Shown here piece by piece: positions 3,878-15,745 of a DNA stretch of 21,695 nt; the first letter of the stretch is position 1; each line of letters opens with the position of its first letter. The stretch is from a virus. A program made the translations under genes and the position numbers. The stretch lies in the IMG/VR virus record IMGVR_UViG_3300029286_003179, positions 1 to 21,695 of that record; one strand, written 5' to 3'. The notes below the pieces were generated by a model. The model saw only the letters and a list, made by a program, of their open reading frames with translations, was not told the DNA's origin and did no database searches.

Positions 3878-4804
3878 TCATCCAACCTCCATCTCATCCC
3901 TAAATCTGAATACCACACCGCCCTCAACTTCAACCATCGCAATATCAACCATGGCGTTCCAAAGCCCCTCGTCAAATTCGGTTATCACACCTTCTTGCAA
4001 AGCCAATACCTGCATAAAAGCTGTTATGCTTTCACTTTTTGCAGTGCGTTCCAATTTCTTATCGTTTATCTTTTCAAGATTTGCCTTGGCAGTTTCGTAT
4101 CGTTCCACCAAAGCAGAATACCTCTTATTATATTCCTCTTGGTCAATAGCATTACAAGAATTTTCTTCCACACATTTGCGCAGTAATTCGAAAACCAAAT
4201 CACTTTCACTCTGTAACTTGGCAATCTCCCCATCAAACTCTGTGGTATCGGTCAAAGTTTGAATTATCGTTTCATAATTCTTTATTATTTCAGTCTTATT
4301 TTCCACCAGTCCATTAAAAGCCTCAACAAATGCTTGTTTTAAGGTATCCTCATAAATATGAGGTGTACTGCACTTTTCATCATTTTTGAATTTATGATTA
4401 CACTGCCAAATTGACCTACGGTATTTGCTGGTAGAATGCCACACCTTGCTACCGTAGTAGCTACCACATTCACCACAAACAATCTTACTTGAAAATGGGC
4501 TGCCACCAGTATTATAGCCTTTAGCAGATTTTCTCTTTTTTAGTTCGTGTTGTGCAAGGTCGAATACCTCTGGCGAAACAATTCCATGATGGCTATTTTT
4601 GATCTTATATTTTGGAAGTTCACCTTTGTTCAGACTTTGCTTCTTAGTTAGAAAATCTTCTGTAAACCCTTTTTGAAGCATAGCATCGCCTTTATATTTC
4701 TCATTCTTTAAAATACTGAGTACCGTGGAGGACTGCCACTTTTCTTTACCAGATGGTGTAAGAATGCCACTCTCTAGGGGGTTGCATTTTGCAAGATGGG
4801 GTTA
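3878..4804 (-). pseudogene. Truncated large serine recombinase (3' half only)
   Basis: The open part corresponds to the C-terminal half of the intact recombinase at 10684-12264: end of the recombinase domain (ILTPSGKEKW, SILKNEKYKGDA), zinc beta-ribbon with CGECG, then the coiled-coil region and terminal strand (VFRFRDEMEVG). The catalytic serine domain is absent. Similarity to the intact copy stops abruptly near 4768, and the frame closes upstream at 4802-4804, so no start-proximal part remains. A near-identical block (about 4484-4570 versus 11288-11385, two differences noticed) sits among regions of lower identity, which suggests duplication or gene conversion. An internal ATG at 4681 gives a 267-aa frame, but that is a remnant and not a functional recombinase. 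Confidence 0.85.
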
Positions 4805-7424: not shown

Positions 7425-7917
7425 CTCTTACACCCTCCAAAATATATAATTCAGCACAGTCCATATCATCATTAAACTCATTTTCCCTTTGGATATAATG
7501 AATTTTATAATTTTGGGGAAGCGTTAGTGTTATGTTTTTATCTGGTTTTTCATTCGCTGGTTTTCCTCTATTTATATCCTTTTTAGAAATTTTGATTTTA
7601 TTTGCAATAAAATCATATTCAACAATTGTACCTCTGCTGGCGAAAAGTGTGAATCCGATCATATTAAAATAGATATTGCATATTAATTTTTTTCCCCTAA
7701 TCAACTTTTCGATGCTTATTTTTTCCTCAGCTTTATTTTGTTCTATCAACTGTTTCCTAACATAAGGAATGAATTTTTCTTTAGTGTCAAATGATGTTTT
7801 TAATGCTTTAGTTATAATTTCAGTCTTATTGACATTCACAACAATCCCTGCATTTATATATATATTTAGTTTTTCATTATTTTCATTTGATTTGTTTTTG
7901 TATCTTCTTATATTCAT
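7414..7917 (-). CDS. Unrecognised 167-aa protein, first gene of a coupled pair
   Basis: ATG 7915-7917 has GAGGAAG 8 nt upstream. The N-terminus is Lys/Asn-rich (MNIRRYKNKSNENNEKLN), followed by alternating beta and helix (GIVVNVNKTEIITKALKTSF, FIPYVRKQLIEQNKAEEK) and a beta-rich core (ICNIYFNMIGFTLFASRGTIVEYDF). It ends LYILEGVRDAE, overlapping the next start. No known domain identified. An extended -10 promoter lies just upstream. Confidence 0.65.
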   Translation of the reverse strand: MNIRRYKNKSNENNEKLNIYINAGIVVNVNKTEIITKALKTSFDTKEKFIPYVRKQLIEQNKAEEKISIEKLIRGKKLICNIYFNMIGFTLFASRGTIVEYDFIANKIKISKKDINRGKPANEKPDKNITLTLPQNYKIHYIQRENEFNDDMDCAELYILEGVRDAE

Positions 7918-7943
7918 AGATGAATCTTCCTCTCAATAAATTT

Positions 7944-7952
7944 ATTATAACA
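7944..7952 (-). promoter_or_regulatory. Extended -10 promoter for the 7414-7917 gene
   Basis: Minus strand TGTTATAAT, a perfect -10 with the extended TG, lies about 27 bp before the ATG at 7917. No good -35 is visible at 16-18 nt (TTTATT is the best), as is common when TGn is present. Confidence 0.55.
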
Positions 7953-8006
7953 CTTTAATTTAGCTTAATAAAGCCCTTAACCAAAAATGTTTTCTGGGAC
8001 AAATCT

Positions 8007-8040
8007 AAAAAAAAATATGCTCCATAATGAAGACAGAGCA
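8007..8040 (-). terminator. Intrinsic terminator of the UDG-HEPN gene
   Basis: On the minus strand TGCTCTG pairs with TGGAGCA (two G-U pairs), followed by TATTTTTTTTT. It begins 9 bp after the stop codon at 8050. Confidence 0.6.
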
Positions 8041-8049
8041 ATTTTTATA

Positions 8050-9180
8050 TTAATATGATTTCAACATATCGACTGTATTATCCATTAAGGCTGTTAAAAA
8101 CAGATTAGCATCCTCAGTTACATATAAAGTATTTACAAAAGCATATATCCCAGGAAGTAATTCAGACTGTTCACTCTTAATAAATCCGCCATTGTGAACA
8201 ATGCAATTTCTAATTTTACTAAGCTTCTCTATTTCATTTTTAAGTGTTTGAGTTTCAAAAGCCTTTTCAAAGTTTTTGTATTTCGCATATTCAACAAGAC
8301 CGTTTTTCCATCCATGTTCTAACTCACTCATAACATCGCTGAGCGAAGGGGTCTTTCCTGATGCAGAATCCCTGAATTTTTTCAAAATTGTATATTCTTT
8401 GCTATCAACAAAGCTATCAGTTAAAAACACTCGAATTTGATTTTCAATAAATGTATGTGCAAGTACTACTTGCATATATCTTTTCATGTTTGGGATAACA
8501 AGTTTTTCATGCCATACAGCTTCTATATCCATACTTTTATCATCTATTCCACTAATTAATTTTTTGTATGCTTGCAACTCAAAATTCATGTGTACATTGT
8601 AGCCAATTTGATTATCAATATTGTACACATATTGTCCAGTAATATAGTTTTCTTGACTGTCATTCTTCATAAAATTTATATAAGGTTTTAACCCAAAGCG
8701 GATGGGTTCAAATTCGCATTCCGCTCCTGTTTTTGGAAAGTCTACATATATAGTATTAACAGTAGCTACTTCACTAATGGCATGTTGCACTTTATCCTTT
8801 ATAGCATCCCCAAATACGATAATCAATTTAAGATTCTTTAAAGCTTTTATCTCATTTTTCAAATATTTTTTTGCACATAAACTATTTAAATCAGATAAAT
8901 CTTTAGTACTGAAGCATTTATAGTAATGTGTCCAATAAATATTACCATCGCAAAATTCCATTATATAATTCTCATTCAAATATTTATCTCCAAAAAGAGC
9001 AATACATAGCTTTCGAAAAAAACGAACCGATGTAAGTGGCTTATACATGGCTTGAATGGACGGAGCGGCAGTAATAATCATAACCTCTTGATTTTTAAGA
9101 GAAAAGAAAAAGGGTTTGTACTCTCCAGAATGGCAATGCTTACAACTTCGAAGTGCTTCCATTATCTCTTTTTTATTCAT
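8050..9180 (-). CDS. Uracil-DNA-glycosylase-like domain fused to HEPN-like RNase domain
   Basis: 376 residues; ATG 9178-9180 with GAGGAG 8 nt upstream. The N-terminal half follows the family-4 UDG layout: C13-x2-C16, strand plus loop VMIITAAPS (34-41, where the family has GEAPG), PLTSVRFFRKL, IYWTHYYKC (C89), a fourth Cys at C102 (LCAKKYL), then LKLIIVFGDAI. The four cysteines match the Fe-S ligand pattern. The catalytic motif A acid and the HPSP motif are not evident (DFPKTGAE instead), so it may bind DNA without excising uracil. The C-terminal half (about 190-376) is helical and contains R324-NCIV-H329, the R-x4-6-H signature of HEPN ribonucleases, followed by NGG. The combination suggests a sensor-effector protein, perhaps in phage defence (inference). 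It has its own promoter and terminator, so is a single-gene unit. Domain calls rest on motifs; the alternative is a non-catalytic DUF. Confidence 0.7.
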   Translation of the reverse strand: MNKKEIMEALRSCKHCHSGEYKPFFFSLKNQEVMIITAAPSIQAMYKPLTSVRFFRKLCIALFGDKYLNENYIMEFCDGNIYWTHYYKCFSTKDLSDLNSLCAKKYLKNEIKALKNLKLIIVFGDAIKDKVQHAISEVATVNTIYVDFPKTGAECEFEPIRFGLKPYINFMKNDSQENYITGQYVYNIDNQIGYNVHMNFELQAYKKLISGIDDKSMDIEAVWHEKLVIPNMKRYMQVVLAHTFIENQIRVFLTDSFVDSKEYTILKKFRDSASGKTPSLSDVMSELEHGWKNGLVEYAKYKNFEKAFETQTLKNEIEKLSKIRNCIVHNGGFIKSEQSELLPGIYAFVNTLYVTEDANLFLTALMDNTVDMLKSY

Positions 9181-9214
9181 ATCTCAAACTCCTCGTATAA
9201 TATTCGATTTAATA

Positions 9215-9244
9215 ATTATATCATATTTTGGTTTATTTTGTCTA
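9215..9244 (-). promoter_or_regulatory. Promoter of the UDG-HEPN gene
   Basis: Minus strand: -35 TAGACA (9239-9244), 18-nt spacer, -10 TATAAT (9215-9220) preceded by TGA, an extended -10. A short leader of about 30 nt is implied. The -35 overlaps the terminal stop of the recombinase remnant 9242-9532, so the promoter arose at or against the fossil's end. Confidence 0.6.
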
Positions 9245-9532
9245 TCGACAAGCTACCGTAATTTTAATTAAATGTTTTTTTAGATTGCAAAACCTTAAGA
9301 TTGACATTACGCCATCCTTAAATTCAAATATTATCTCACTGCCAAAATTAACCGTAATTATATCAATAATTGAATTTCAAACTCCTTCATAAAACTTAGT
9401 AAATAGTGTATCATTCTCTTCCAGTGTCCGAATAAATGCAAATATAACATCACCTTTATTAGTCTACTCCAATCGTTTATCATCAATTTCAGAAAGCCTA
9501 TTTTTATCCGTTTTATATCCATAATGTCTTTA
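9242..9532 (-). pseudogene. Serine recombinase C-terminal remnant with in-frame stops
   Basis: One minus frame reads HYGYKTDKNRLSEIDDKRLE, stop, TNKGDVIFAFIRTLEENDTLFTKFYEGV, stop, NSIIDIITVNFGSEIIFEFKDG. It aligns along its length with the end of the intact recombinase at 10684-12264 (INDKKLERT..., ITAFMQTLALQEG, FDDELWNGIVEKVSV, FEFKDG). The second stop replaces the conserved Trp of the LWN motif (TGG to TGA), the first replaces the residue after LE, and a further stop bounds the frame at 9530-9532. No N-terminal part is present. This explains most of the otherwise empty 9181-9560 stretch. Confidence 0.8.
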
Positions 9533-9563
9533 TTGTAAACAAGCGAGAAACTTGTCAGAATAA

Positions 9564-9591
9564 TTGTTTTTTTATTGTTTTGTGATATAAT
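9564..9591 (+). promoter_or_regulatory. Promoter of the small peptide/DUF4230 unit
   Basis: Extended -10 TGATATAAT (9583-9591), identical to the extended -10 of the divergent UDG-HEPN gene. A weak -35 TTGTTT (9564-9569) lies 16 nt upstream. A leader of about 80 nt precedes the first ribosome site. Confidence 0.55.
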
Positions 9592-9676
9592 GTAAGAAAA
9601 TTAAACTATAAAATACATTCGCGGAATTTACAAAGGCTATTGTGATACTAAATCTAATTCTTAGGAGGTGTGCGCA

Positions 9677-9766
9677 ATGAAAAAAGTGGTTGCTATAGTG
9701 GCTATAATTGTTGCATCTATTTTACTGCTTATAATAGGCAGAGCAATTATCATTACAATTTTTTAA
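9677..9766 (+). CDS. 29-aa single-span membrane peptide
   Basis: ATG 9677 with AGGAGG 8 nt upstream; TAA at 9764-9766. The peptide is MKKVVAIVAIIVASILLL followed by IIGRAIIITIF: a basic N-terminus and one long hydrophobic helix interrupted by an Arg. It lies 29 bp before the DUF4230 gene and shares its promoter. No family recognised; it could be a membrane partner of the DUF4230 protein or a leader peptide. The strong ribosome site is the main support. Confidence 0.55.
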   Translation: MKKVVAIVAIIVASILLLIIGRAIIITIF

Positions 9767-9795
9767 AATAATTTCTATGAGGGGGAATTTATATC

Positions 9796-10368
9796 ATGAA
9801 AACAAAAATAGTAAAAGCAATATTATTTAGCTTAATAGCAATATCATTGGTGATGTTATACTTTCGTGTATTACCGTTTGTACATATCGGAAAAGCAACC
9901 ATTAACACCGAATATCTCAATTCATTATTGTCTAAATCAAGTGAATTAACCGCTGCAAAATTGACTATCACAGGAATGTCGGAATTCAAAGACAAGGGAA
10001 TTACATTTTTGAATAAAGCTGATTTCACAATGGTATACAAAGCGACAGTTAGAGCAGGAATCAATATTGATGAAGTTAAAATCGAATCAAACAATGTGGA
10101 TAAAATTTATATCTCTATCCCCAAGGCTCAGATTCAAGAAGCAAAAGTTGATCCTTCTTCCATTAAGTATTTTAATGAAAAAATCGCTTTATTCAATTTG
10201 AACGAAAAAGAAGATTCTAACAAAGCAATAGAGTTAGCCGAAGAGGCTGCAAAGAAGGAGGCTGCCAAAACCGGAATACTCGAATTGGCAGATAACCAAT
10301 CTGCAACCCTTATAAAAGGTATATTGGCAAATGCAATTCCTGACGGTTACGAAATTGAAATAAAATAG
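9796..10368 (+). CDS. DUF4230 domain-containing membrane-anchored protein
   Basis: 190 residues; ATG 9796 preceded by GAGGGGGAA. An N-terminal signal anchor (KAILFSLIAISLVMLYF) is followed by the DUF4230 pattern: a SELTAAKLTITGMSEF strand, a VYKATVRAGINIDEVKIE segment, IYISIPKAQIQEAKVDPSS, then a helical region with EDSNKAIELAEEAAKKEAAKTGIL and a terminal ATLIKGILANAIPDGYEIEI. Function of the family is unknown; the protein should face outside the membrane. It is the only long plus-strand gene in the window and is bracketed by recombinase remnants on both sides. Confidence 0.8.
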   Translation: MKTKIVKAILFSLIAISLVMLYFRVLPFVHIGKATINTEYLNSLLSKSSELTAAKLTITGMSEFKDKGITFLNKADFTMVYKATVRAGINIDEVKIESNNVDKIYISIPKAQIQEAKVDPSSIKYFNEKIALFNLNEKEDSNKAIELAEEAAKKEAAKTGILELADNQSATLIKGILANAIPDGYEIEIK

Positions 10369-10683: not shown

Positions 10684-12264
10684 TTAAATAATCCAATCTA
10701 ACTGCAACCCATCCTTAAACTCAAATACCCATCTATTATCATAAACACTTACTTTTTCAACAATACCGTTCCAAAGTTCATCGTCAAATTCCATAACCAA
10801 CCCTTCTTGCAAAGCCAATGTCTGCATAAAAGCTGTTATACTTTTACACTTTGCTGTGCGTTCCAATTTCTTATCGTTTATCTGTGCAAGTTTGGTTTTG
10901 GCAAATTCATATCGTTCCGCCAAAGCACTGTACTTCTTATTATATTCTGCTTGATCAATAGGTGTATGAGCATTTTCCTCAACGCATTTGCGAAGTAGTT
11001 CGAAAGCCACATCACTTTCACTCTGCAACTTGGCAATCTCCCTATCAAGTGCAGTGGTGTCAGTCAATGTCTGTATAACAGTTTCATAGTCTTGTAAGAT
11101 TTCCGCCTTATTTTCCACCAGCCCATTAAAAGCATCAATAAATGCTTTCTTCAAAGTTTCCTCGTAAATATGAGGCGTACCGCACTTTTCATCATTCTTG
11201 AACTTGTGATTGCATTGCCAAATTGTCCTTCGGTATTTGCTGGTGCTGTGCCACACCTTGCTTCCATAGTAGCTACCACATTCGCCACAAACAATCTTAC
11301 TTGAAAATGGGCTACCACCAGTATTATAGCCTTTAGAAGATTTTCTCTTTTTTAGTTCGTGTTGTGCAAGGTCGAATACCTCTGGTGAAACAATACCAGG
11401 ATGGCTATTTTCAACATAATATTGTGGTATTTCGCCCTCATTTACCTTTTTCTTTTTGGTAAGAAAATCAACTGTAAAAGTCTTTTGTAACATAGCATCG
11501 CCCTTATATTTCTCATTCTTTAAAATACTAAGTACCGTTGATGACTGCCACTTTTCTTTACCAGATGGCGTTAGAATGCAACTATCTGTCAAATACTTTG
11601 CAATACCTGATGGCGTTTTGCCCTCAAGAAATAGCTTATAAATCAATCTAACTGTTTTTGCTTCGCTTTCCACAATTTTAGGAAAGCCATCTTCACCTTT
11701 TTCGTAACCGAGAAACTGTCCATATGGCAGGCTAACCTTGCCATCTGAAAAGCGTTTACGTTGACCCCATGTAACATTTTCAGAAATACTGCGACTTTCC
11801 TCCTGAGCGAGCGAGCTCATTATTGTAATAAGCAGTTCGCCTTTGCTGTCGAGCGTTAAAATATTTTCCTTTTCAAAATATACCTCCACTCCCTTTTCCT
11901 TAAGCTGACGGACAGTAGTAAGAGTATCAACGGTGTTCCGTGCAAAACGACTAACCGATTTTGTAATGATAAGGTCAATCTTACCATCTAAGCTATCTGC
12001 AATCATTCTATTAAAGCCATCACGTTTTTTGGTACTGGTTGCTGAAATCCCCTCGTCCGAATACACCTCAACCATCTGCCATATTGGGTTTTCTTCAATC
12101 TGCCTTGTATAGTAATCAACCTGTGCCTCGTACGAAGTTAATTGTTCCTCATTATCTGTAGAAACTCTCGCATAGGCAGCAACTCGTTTCTTTGCATAAT
12201 TTATACTGAGTACATTTGTAAAACGATTTTCAACCGCCGGTATCATAGTAACTTGTCTTGCCAT
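10684..12264 (-). CDS. Large serine recombinase (second of tandem pair)
   Basis: 526 residues from ATG 12262-12264, which overlaps the upstream recombinase's TGA as TGATG; AAGGAAG lies upstream. A GTG at 12274-12276 would add four residues. The resolvase domain begins KRVAAYARVSTDNEEQLTSY with catalytic Ser35, and continues with DLIITKSVSRFARN and EKENILTLDSKGELL. The recombinase domain (FLGYEKGEDGFPKIVESEAKTVRLIYKLF), zinc beta-ribbon (C326-GE-C329 ... WQCNHKFKNDEKC) and a C-terminal coiled coil ending ELWNGIVEKVSV follow, giving the usual length of the phage/transposon integrase family. It catalyses site-specific integration or excision through a 5' phosphoserine link. Translation is coupled to the upstream partner, suggesting that both act together. 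Confidence 0.93.
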   Translation of the reverse strand: MARQVTMIPAVENRFTNVLSINYAKKRVAAYARVSTDNEEQLTSYEAQVDYYTRQIEENPIWQMVEVYSDEGISATSTKKRDGFNRMIADSLDGKIDLIITKSVSRFARNTVDTLTTVRQLKEKGVEVYFEKENILTLDSKGELLITIMSSLAQEESRSISENVTWGQRKRFSDGKVSLPYGQFLGYEKGEDGFPKIVESEAKTVRLIYKLFLEGKTPSGIAKYLTDSCILTPSGKEKWQSSTVLSILKNEKYKGDAMLQKTFTVDFLTKKKKVNEGEIPQYYVENSHPGIVSPEVFDLAQHELKKRKSSKGYNTGGSPFSSKIVCGECGSYYGSKVWHSTSKYRRTIWQCNHKFKNDEKCGTPHIYEETLKKAFIDAFNGLVENKAEILQDYETVIQTLTDTTALDREIAKLQSESDVAFELLRKCVEENAHTPIDQAEYNKKYSALAERYEFAKTKLAQINDKKLERTAKCKSITAFMQTLALQEGLVMEFDDELWNGIVEKVSVYDNRWVFEFKDGLQLDWII

Positions 12265-13469
12265 CAGTATTTCCACTTCCTTTCCGTTTCTGTGGAATCT
12301 GCAAATATAAATTTTAGCCTGTTATCCGAATAGGCAATAATTTGCTTGATTTCCTTCTTAAACTCTGCGATCAACATTTCTAACACACCCTCTGGTATTT
12401 GTTTCGAGGGACATGACTCCTTTCCGAGGCGGTTAAATGTAGAGCAAATCCAGACAGTCTTTGCATATTTAGTACCGGCATTATTAATCTTTCTGCGGTA
12501 ATTCTTGCCACATTCGCTACATAGAATTTTACTTGTAAAAGCATATGATTTAACATTAGATGTCCCTGTGCTATATGACTTTGCCCTGTTCGCAAGCTCT
12601 AACTGTACTTGTTCAAATGTGTCACGATCGATAATAGCTTTGTGACTATCTTTCACATAATACATAGGCAGTTGACCCGTATTTGTGCGTTTTTGCTTTT
12701 CAATATGGTTAGAACTGAACACCTTCTGCAAAAGCATATCACCAACATATTTTTCATTGCGTAGAATACGGTTAACTGCATTTTCGCGCCAATCACAACC
12801 ATTTTTTGTTTTGTAACCAGCAGTATTAAGCTTTTTAATTATAGCATTTTTACCATTCCCACTGAGGTATTCGTTAAAAATCTTTTGTACAACCTCAGCT
12901 TCCTCTGGTACTATTTCAAGTGTCCCATCTTTTAATTCGTAGCCAAAAATAGTAAAGCTATGTGCACGCCCTTCTTTAAACTTATTCCTAATTCGCCACT
13001 TACAGTTTTCACTGACAGATAGGCTTTCTTCCTGTGCAAAAGAAGCGAGGATGGTAAGCATCACCTCACCATCCCCACTTATGCTGTGGATATTCTCTTT
13101 TTCAAAATAGACATCAATATTTAGTTCTTTAAGCTCCCTTACCGTTTGGAGCATAGTTACAGTATTTCGTGCCAACCTTGATATGGATTTTGTAATTATC
13201 ATATCAATCCTACCATTCTTGCAATCAGCAAGTAACCTTTGAAACTCTGCCCTGTTATCCTTTGTGCCTGATAAGGCTTCATCAGCATAAACACCAACAT
13301 ACTCCCAGCCACGGTGATTTTGAATAAAATCACTGTAATAACTTACCTGTGCTGATAGTGAGTGGAGCATTGCCTCCTTGCCACTTGATACTCTTGCATA
13401 GGCAGCAACTCGCTTTTTAGTTGGCAACTTCGGTGCTGAAGGCTCAATTTTTCGTACAATTCGTTGCAT
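12264..13469 (-). CDS. Large serine recombinase (first of tandem pair)
   Basis: 401 residues from ATG 13467-13469, with AAGGAG 8 nt upstream; the GTG two codons earlier is too close to that site. Catalytic domain: RVAAYARVSSGKEAMLHSL with Ser28, MIITKSISRLARNTV, and EKENIHSISGDGEVML. It then has a recombinase domain (FGYELKDGTLEIVPEEAEVVQKIFNEYL) and a zinc beta-ribbon (ILCSECGKNYRRK...VWICSTFNRLGKESC). After the ribbon only about 50 residues remain, so it lacks the long coiled-coil region of its partner. Its stop overlaps the partner's start by one base. Paired serine recombinases of unequal length recall SCCmec Ccr pairs in arrangement, though homology to them is not claimed. Confidence 0.92.
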   Translation of the reverse strand: MQRIVRKIEPSAPKLPTKKRVAAYARVSSGKEAMLHSLSAQVSYYSDFIQNHRGWEYVGVYADEALSGTKDNRAEFQRLLADCKNGRIDMIITKSISRLARNTVTMLQTVRELKELNIDVYFEKENIHSISGDGEVMLTILASFAQEESLSVSENCKWRIRNKFKEGRAHSFTIFGYELKDGTLEIVPEEAEVVQKIFNEYLSGNGKNAIIKKLNTAGYKTKNGCDWRENAVNRILRNEKYVGDMLLQKVFSSNHIEKQKRTNTGQLPMYYVKDSHKAIIDRDTFEQVQLELANRAKSYSTGTSNVKSYAFTSKILCSECGKNYRRKINNAGTKYAKTVWICSTFNRLGKESCPSKQIPEGVLEMLIAEFKKEIKQIIAYSDNRLKFIFADSTETERKWKY

Positions 13470-14360: not shown

Positions 14361-14396
14361 TTATTATGTCATAATTGTATCATTATTATGTCGTAA
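14361..14396. repeat. Two direct operator repeats flanking the -10 element
   Basis: TTATTATGTCATAA (14361-14374) and TTATTATGTCGTAA (14383-14396) differ at one base and are 22 bp apart start to start, two helical turns. One fills most of the spacer and the other lies just downstream of the -10, as expected for antitoxin autoregulation (inference). Confidence 0.7.
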
Positions 14397-14798
14397 TGTC
14401 AATTTAAAATTCACAAAACAGCTATGCCCACAAAATTTACGATCTTTATTTCCATAGCTTTCGAATTCTTTTCCACACCTAGCACAGATGATAGTATAAT
14501 AAGCTTTTCGGTTAATCTTACTTTCATTGGCTTTCCACCATTTACGGCGACACTGCTCAGAGCAAAACTTTTTCGGATTGCCTCTCAATCCATGTTTTAA
14601 TTGCTTCCCACATTGCTTACATACGATACATTTTTCTTTGACTTTATTAGTGTATTTAGTCATTACAGTGCCAAGGTTATTGCGTCTGCAATAGGATTTT
14701 ATTGTGTTTTCAAAAATACCAAGCTCTGAAGCTATTTTTGAATAGCTCAAACCCTTATCTCGCATTTGATGTATCTTTTCTTTTTGTTCATCAGTCAT
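14364..14798 (-). CDS. HTH protein with two CxxC zinc-finger motifs
   Basis: 144 residues from ATG 14796-14798, where GGAGG lies 8 nt upstream; the longer frame to 14915 runs through a hairpin. Residues 1-42 are a helix-turn-helix (DKGLSYSKIASELGIFENTI), resembling transposase/sigma-type HTHs. Two treble-clef/FCS-like zinc motifs follow: CIVCKQCGKQL...KFCSEQCRRKWW and CARCGKEF...KFCGHSCFVNF. It is probably a DNA-binding regulator. Its last codons lie inside the toxin-antitoxin operator, so transcription through it would cross that operator. Similar proteins occur beside recombinases in clostridial elements. Confidence 0.7.
   Translation of the reverse strand: MTDEQKEKIHQMRDKGLSYSKIASELGIFENTIKSYCRRNNLGTVMTKYTNKVKEKCIVCKQCGKQLKHGLRGNPKKFCSEQCRRKWWKANESKINRKAYYTIICARCGKEFESYGNKDRKFCGHSCFVNFKLTLRHNNDTIMT
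14374..14402 (-). promoter_or_regulatory. Consensus promoter of the toxin-antitoxin operon
   Basis: Minus strand: -35 TTGACA (14397-14402, perfect), 17-nt spacer, -10 TACAAT (14374-14379) with extended TGA. It overlaps the last bases of the HTH/zinc-finger gene region. Confidence 0.8.
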
Positions 14799-14884
14799 GA
14801 AATTTACCTCCATAGAAAAAGGAGCGATTCCGAAGAACTTCCCCCACAATAATTTATTATTCGTCCCAATAAGGACAGATAGAA

Positions 14885-14923
14885 AATGAAGATTGCAAAA
14901 TGGTGCTTTTTGCAATCTTCATT
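14885..14923. repeat. Perfect 16-bp hairpin
   Basis: AATGAAGATTGCAAAA (14885-14900) and TTTTGCAATCTTCATT (14908-14923), 7-nt loop. It shares the TTGCAA core with the repeats at 14977-15036. On the minus strand ATTTTCTATC follows, a poor terminator tail; on plus AGTCATTGG follows. Confidence 0.75.
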
Positions 14924-14976
14924 AGTCATTGGCAATATTTGATTTATCCCATAAATACTGGGTTTTTAGATAATCT

Positions 14977-15036
14977 AAATGAACATTGCAAGGGGTGTCC
15001 CTCATTTGCAATGTTGCAATGTTGCAATGTTCATTT
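14977..15036. repeat. Perfect 15-bp inverted repeat around tandem octamers
   Basis: AAATGAACATTGCAA (14977-14991) and TTGCAATGTTCATTT (15022-15036). The 30-bp interior contains two further copies of the TTGCAATG octamer. Confidence 0.75.
15006..15029. repeat. Three tandem TTGCAATG octamers
   Basis: Perfect head-to-tail copies at 15006, 15014 and 15022, with an inverted copy in the left arm at 14984-14991. Possibly an array of protein-binding sites; nothing in the sequence identifies the ligand. Confidence 0.75.
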
Positions 15037-15068
15037 TAGGGGTATTATACAGTGAAACACCTAAAATG
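15032..15068. repeat. Competing 9-bp inverted repeat
   Basis: CATTTTAGG (15032-15040) pairs with CCTAAAATG (15060-15068). The left arm overlaps the right arm of the 14977-15036 repeat, so the two hairpins are mutually exclusive. A TATAAT (minus, 15044-15049) lies in the loop. Confidence 0.6.
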
Positions 15069-15076
15069 CGCATACA

Positions 15077-15745
15077 TTATTTTAGCTTTTCTGCCACCTT
15101 TTGAATTAACAGCCCTGTATATTCACCATTTACCGACTTGCCATTTACAGCATTTTGCACCCAGTAATCAGGAGTATTAACAATACCTCTTGCAACAAGC
15201 ACATCAACTGCATCAGCAAGTGGCATAAGTTGTGGTTTGGTCATCTCATTTATTCTCTGTTGCACAGCCCATCTGAAATCATCAACTGTTTTATTGTATT
15301 CAGCAAAATATGAAACAGGGTCAGTGTGGTTTGTTTCATGCCATTTGTCTGAAACCTCAGCATGTGACATAAGGTTGTCTTTGGTTACAGTAGTACATCC
15401 CACCTGCTCAATAAAAATATCAGCAAAAAGTTTAACAGCTGTATCCCAAACAACATTGAATTTATCCTCATCATATTCTTTTGGTCGACACAACTCAACC
15501 CCAATCATACTTAAATTTGCGGTTCTTCCAGCGTGCCACGAAACCTCATTGTAAGGAATAAGCTGAATTACCTCGTTCCAATCAACCACTGCTTGAACTG
15601 ATGAGCCTCTGTTTTTAGCATTCCAATAGTCAAAATGGTTCTGTGCCGTGCCTCCTGGGTTGCCTGTTTCATGCACAACAACGCCCTTGGGCTTTAGTTT
15701 TGTGCCTGGGCGGTTAAATTTAATAAGTTTTACTGTATAATTCAT
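15077..15745 (-). CDS. Phage N-acetylmuramoyl-L-alanine amidase (endolysin)
   Basis: 222 residues of the Amidase_2 zinc hydrolase family: GVVVHETGN with His25, YNEVSWHAG (70-72), SMIGVELC (Glu84 region), SHAEVSDKW (His128) and NHTDP with Asp142, giving the usual His-His-Asp metal set. It cuts the bond between N-acetylmuramic acid and L-alanine in peptidoglycan, releasing phage at lysis. The C-terminal 50 residues (LADAVDVLVARGIVNTPDYW) form a small helical domain found in clostridial phage lysins. It starts directly after the holin's stop codon. No signal peptide, so it relies on the holin. Confidence 0.92.
   Translation of the reverse strand: MNYTVKLIKFNRPGTKLKPKGVVVHETGNPGGTAQNHFDYWNAKNRGSSVQAVVDWNEVIQLIPYNEVSWHAGRTANLSMIGVELCRPKEYDEDKFNVVWDTAVKLFADIFIEQVGCTTVTKDNLMSHAEVSDKWHETNHTDPVSYFAEYNKTVDDFRWAVQQRINEMTKPQLMPLADAVDVLVARGIVNTPDYWVQNAVNGKSVNGEYTGLLIQKVAEKLK

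Follow-up and report, generated by a model that had tools for sequence, protein, structure and literature searches.

A terminator-like hairpin and a second, repeat-armed hairpin between the lysis and integration modules of a phage

The window analysed here, the whole of a 21.7-kb IMG/VR virus record, encodes on its minus strand, in this order, a tape measure, tail proteins, a holin (PF05105), an amidase (PF01510) and, beyond a gap, an HTH protein, a Phd/ParE-like pair and two large serine recombinases. The gap between the amidase and HTH genes is rich in repeats and holds two strong stems, termed H1 and H2 (Table 1). Every repeat that a preliminary description had claimed for it, namely a 16-bp hairpin, a 15-bp inverted repeat, three tandem units and a 9-bp hairpin, is present in the sequence, and the TTGCAA core does recur in both orientations, as six words in an inverted arrangement. 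The further claim that the 9-bp hairpin competes with H2 survives only in part, as the two stems do overlap, but by just 5 nt (15032-15036) at the base of H2. At its upstream end the conserved cassette reaches further than first described, taking in a promoter-like box (15044-15072). Elsewhere in the window an open reading frame (3878-4681) resembles the C-terminal part of a large serine recombinase and is similar to the recombinase encoded at 10684-12276; it lies about 6 kb past that gene, close to an S-layer-homology protein, and is possibly the remnant of another element.

Table 1. Positions of the hairpins, repeats and neighbouring genes in the window
Feature	Position	Strand	Remarks
Amidase gene (N-acetylmuramoyl-L-alanine amidase, endolysin), upstream	15077-15745	-	Pfam Amidase_2, 8e-17
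Promoter-like segment	15044-15072	-	perfect TATAAT at 15044-15049, 17-nt spacer, poor -35 TGCGCA (3/6)
Alternative weak hairpin, CATTTTAGG...CCTAAAATG	15032-15040/15060-15068	-	9 bp, -11.2 kcal/mol; spans promoter-like box
H2	14977-14991/15022-15036	-	perfect 15-bp inverted repeat, 30-nt loop; encloses octamers
Three tandem TTGCAATG units	15006-15029		CATTGCAA on minus strand; outermost unit within H2 arm
Inverted CATTGCAA copy	14984-14991		one copy; able to pair with any of the three units
H1-H2 spacer	14924-14976	-	28% GC
H1	14885-14900/14908-14923	-	perfect 16-bp stem, 7-nt loop; then TTTTCTATCT on minus strand
Second terminator-like hairpin	14815-14845	-	UUCG loop, TTTTT tail; about -8 kcal/mol
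Gene for HTH + zinc-finger-like protein (phrog_2308), downstream	14364-14795	-	followed by Phd/ParE-like pair, then two large serine recombinases

The folding of the gap goes well beyond that of shuffled sequence. Its longest perfect arm is 16 bp, as against 10 bp in 60 dinucleotide shuffles, and 0 of 300 shuffles of either strand reach its fold z-scores (minus strand -5.1, plus strand -3.8); for the 161-nt cassette the z-score is -7.3. The H1 stem-loop has a folding energy of about -17.1 to -18.5 kcal/mol, and H2 is predicted to form, as RNA, a three-way junction (-25.4 kcal/mol), its inner octamers being paired to one another. The arms of H1 and H2 share the word AATGAA(G/C)ATTGCAA, with a single base pair differing between them (G-C to C-G), and this difference has changed on both sides, as would be expected if pairing were kept. 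Allowing at most one mismatch, TGAASATTGCAA occurs five times in the window (0.63 expected), and the spacer words CCAGTA and GGGATA can pair with sequence 3' of H1. The second terminator-like hairpin stands directly before the ribosome-binding site of the HTH gene and is similar to a hairpin in L012. Small open reading frames across H2 were rejected by eye, having no ribosome-binding site and no clear coding bias.

The cassette is known as two distinct sequences only, that of the window and that of L006. Whereas L003 is nearly the same phage as the window (99.7%), L004/L006, from a 49.8-kb record (G001), represents a distinct phage that has kept the cassette. The late half of this phage is 87% identical to the window and the gap 94%, with 69 consecutive columns around H2 invariant and the copy number of TTGCAATG the same; the H1 stem is likewise identical, two bases of its loop having changed, and the linker varies too. 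Identity between the two collapses inside the gap at about 14865, and past this break the HTH proteins are only 49% identical and the recombinase genes about 71%. Two further relatives do not carry the cassette. In L007 (88% amidase identity) the amidase stop and the HTH start are separated by 36 nt, a short gap in which no terminator was found, and in L008 (86% amidase identity) the amidase is followed by an excisionase-like gene and a tyrosine-integrase-like gene. As an insert the cassette is therefore optional, and it travels with the late side of the phage and not with the HTH/recombinase side. In L006 (6660-7070) the 3' end of the amidase gene is also partly duplicated, after the hairpins, together with a promoter-like TTTTAGGTGTTTCACTGTATAATA segment, and the second copy leads to a small zinc-ribbon-like reading frame.

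No copy of the cassette was found outside this lineage. Two CATTGCAA words occur in 62 IMG/VR stretches, mostly with no inverted copy nearby, and none of those outside this lineage has the hairpin architecture; the octamer pair alone is not special. A threefold TTGCAANN did not occur in 291 genomes of the class to which G004 belongs, and neither did a control pattern. A looser hairpin pattern gave only two partial matches in viral contigs (L199 and L200), both without full arms, and phage and plasmid records held nothing relevant. The ATTGCAACATTGCAA words at the 3' end of a RepA-like AAA ATPase gene in L099 and L164 were set aside, as related genes carry arrays of other words, which points to iterons in general. 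Also rejected was the idea that the octamer word turns up elsewhere in the form of an encoded CNIATLQ tail: this had no match in phage records, and weak matches only, in unrelated plasmids.

The position of the cassette is one at which a terminator-like hairpin is usual. In 54 non-redundant sequences (53 relatives and the window) the 260 nt upstream of the HTH gene were scanned for hairpins with an energy of -9 kcal/mol or lower and a T tract behind them, and such a hairpin was present in 47 of them, compared with 23 of 108 gaps in which mononucleotides had been shuffled, a lenient control. It is thus near-universal in this slot among phages with this HTH protein, and classical terminators are seen in L013, L038, L048, L055 and L068 among the relatives inspected. 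The best scorer in the window is H1, followed by TTTCTATCT, and a consensus scan also scores H1 as a minus-strand terminator. H1 possesses the stable stem-loop of an intrinsic terminator (16 bp, 7-nt loop) and, right after the stem, a uridine-rich tail, TTTTCTATCT, which is interrupted but accepted by two scans. The base of the stem, AATGAA/TTCATT, is not GC-rich, only 4 of the 16 pairs being G-C. A GC-rich base is typical of intrinsic terminators but not obligatory in AT-rich genomes; because it is lacking here we call H1 terminator-like, not a proven terminator. The functions first proposed for the gap are thus supported in part. Best supported among them is that of a terminator or a structured RNA placed between the lysis gene and the module that follows, on the basis that terminator-like hairpins are usual at this slot among relatives and that the stems are conserved while the loops vary.

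We consider it slightly more likely than not (roughly 0.55) that the cassette stops transcription of the late operon at H1, with H2 as a structured segment ahead of it that bears three slipped octamers in its 5' arm; for H1 itself the simplest reading is that it would terminate the lysis operon. The sequences, the folds, their conservation and the usual place of such hairpins among relatives are observed, whereas we infer transcription of the cassette, termination by H1, and an origin of H2 via duplication and slippage. A transcript that comes through the amidase gene, or begins at the TATAAT box behind it, would fold H2 and then H1 on the minus strand. H1, ending in UUUUCUAU, would serve as an AT-rich intrinsic terminator and so would separate transcription of the lysis genes from the HTH/toxin-antitoxin/recombinase module. 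H2, the sequence of which is nearly that of H1, is probably a duplicate whose 5' arm has grown, presumably by slippage, to three 8-nt units, such that the single 3' arm could pair in more than one register. That the cassette goes together with the late genes of the phage counts in favour of the terminator, while against it stand the small number of G-C pairs in H1, its interrupted U tract, and the close relatives L007 and L008, which do without the cassette. As H2 has no U tract, termination explains neither this hairpin nor its 69-nt invariance. With the intrinsic (Rho-independent) terminators that end phage lysis operons the cassette shares the slot that follows the endolysin gene and precedes the next module, a strong stem and the U-rich tail of H1, and most relatives have a terminator-like hairpin there; it differs from them in its AT-rich stem, its interrupted U tract and the presence of a second hairpin of almost identical sequence, one arm of which carries the octamer three times. 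The cassette is mostly ordinary in kind, a probable terminator in the expected slot, but it is unusual in detail, with its probably duplicated hairpin, triplicated octamer arm and invariant 69-nt block. Should it prove to be a terminator and nothing more, it would illustrate how phages insulate the lysis operon from the integration module, in an odd variant with a repeated arm.

The cassette could also be a free-standing small RNA gene of about 155 nt, a reading we regard as doubtful; its transcript would start from the TATAAT box at the foot of H2 and pass through the three-way junction and a linker to H1 as terminator. A distance of 7-8 nt separates the TATAAT box from the foot of H2, with which the predicted start coincides; the stretch TTTTAGG...TATAATA is identical in three contexts, the window and both L006 copies, which suggests function; H2 is 100% conserved between the window and L006; and the strong fold of the cassette and its absence, as an optional insert, from L007 and L008 would suit such a gene. 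Its -35 box is poor in the window, however, and the consensus scan scored no promoter at this segment, the -35 being too weak; a better one (TGGACA, 17-nt spacer) is present in one of the two L006 copies, that leading to the zinc-ribbon-like frame. Rfam gave no match in the gap, and a covariance model returned no convincing relative outside the two phages, its matches there being weak single hairpins consistent with chance or with ordinary terminators. In the covariation check advised in the preliminary description, RNAalifold adds an outer stem around H1 and finds in it one compensatory (double-sided) and one consistent (one-sided) change and none that breaks a pair, yet shuffled controls score as high in half of the cases, and with only two distinct cassette sequences this covariation counts for next to nothing. 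Phages are known to carry small RNAs in such inserts between operons (PMC4104026; PMC7067206). Like the prophage RNAs at moron sites, AgvB and AsxR of O157 prophages (PMC4104026) and the BTP1 ncRNAs (PMC7067206), the cassette is a short non-coding insert between operons with a candidate promoter, a structured body and a terminator; unlike them, it is not at a PR' moron site, has no sequence relation to them that we could find, and is known from sequence alone. A true stand-alone RNA would be a new phage small RNA. It seems unlikely that the cassette represents an undescribed family of such RNAs, of about 155 nt with its own promoter and terminator, in which a three-way junction formed by the three slipped octamers would offer a single 3' arm several 5' partners.

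The repeats might instead act at the level of DNA, as an array of sites for a protein that recognises the repeated (C/G)ATTGCAA word in either orientation, whether as operator, recombination accessory site or iteron origin. The six inverted TTGCAA words would fit this, as would the fact that base identity, beyond mere pairing, is kept between H1 and H2 and between phages, but overall such an array is improbable. The HTH protein and the recombinases have diverged (49% and about 71%) while the cassette has remained 94% identical, and L007 has related HTH and recombinase genes and no cassette, so the proposal that the HTH protein or the recombinases bind here is disfavoured; the word neither recurs beside the G001 repressor gene nor is inherited together with the HTH protein. 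Operators and iterons should match the other control words of the phage, and TTGCAATG matches neither GAACAAG, the iteron word that in G001 surrounds a 13%-GC core on the VapE side, nor the GGAC/GTCC words repeated beside the G001 repressor gene; on these sequence grounds a replication origin or repressor operator is unlikely. The cassette does resemble the iteron origins of phage-inducible chromosomal islands (PMC6092414) in its short tandem words with inverted copies. It has, in contrast to these, no adjoining replication initiator gene, its neighbours being the amidase and HTH genes, and no two sets of words flanking a strongly AT-rich core, the spacer between H1 and H2 having 28% GC against 13% in the array that G001 carries, with its different word, behind VapE. 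More improbable still is a short palindromic insertion of the MITE or REPIN kind, with the outer 19-nt imperfect repeats (14883-14901/15019-15037) as its borders. The arms of these repeats are 89% complementary, the cassette is absent from the same place in L007 and L008, and L006 has undergone local rearrangement with its duplicated amidase tail, but dispersed copies are lacking: none occurs elsewhere in the window or in G001, none in phage and plasmid records, and the exact hairpin has 0 matches in 84,980 species genomes, a set outside which the host genome of the window lies. Nor was a target-site duplication seen.

Arrays of a tandem word with an inverted copy are themselves enriched in the loci examined (1.0 Mb), with 23 against 0-3 in shuffles, a count inflated by the choice of some loci for their tandem octamer pattern, and most of those inspected lie beside or downstream of replication genes, a point that speaks for a DNA-level role of the cassette repeats. 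The nearest look-alike of the window array is in L014 (IMG/VR 3300002219_000621, 4634-4690), where three tandem GGTTGCAA units and an inverted TTGCAACC lie between the HTH region and a serine recombinase gene. It shares with the window array the three tandem 8-nt units, the TTGCAA core, the one inverted copy and the HTH-recombinase setting, and differs in its word, in standing after rather than before the HTH gene, and in having no H1 partner. Other tandem 7-9-nt words with an inverted copy are found in L071 (1073-1200), L015 (648-982), L086 (2571-2687), L079 (1643-1779), L075 (2303-2425), L160 (10734-10830) and L168 (1463-1515), near or just behind DUF927, VapE, DUF3987, Prim-Pol/AAA_25 or RepA-like genes, and the word differs each time; from their sequence and setting, such arrays by replication genes are candidate replication origins. 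In G001 (L194, 9960-10170), behind the VapE gene (7559-9976), the 13%-GC stretch has GAACAAG at 9965, 10040 and 10048 on one side of it and inverted CTTGTTC at 10144 and 10152 on the other, which resembles an origin although the prophage is of full size; this layout has been described for phage-inducible chromosomal islands, and is stated there to be shared by no other known replicon (PMC6092414). The same record (L194, 4750-7614) encodes a DNA polymerase I-like protein (PF00476) with an apparent intein-like insert in the middle of the product (CLTGDHEV...VWVTGNSG), recognised by eye.
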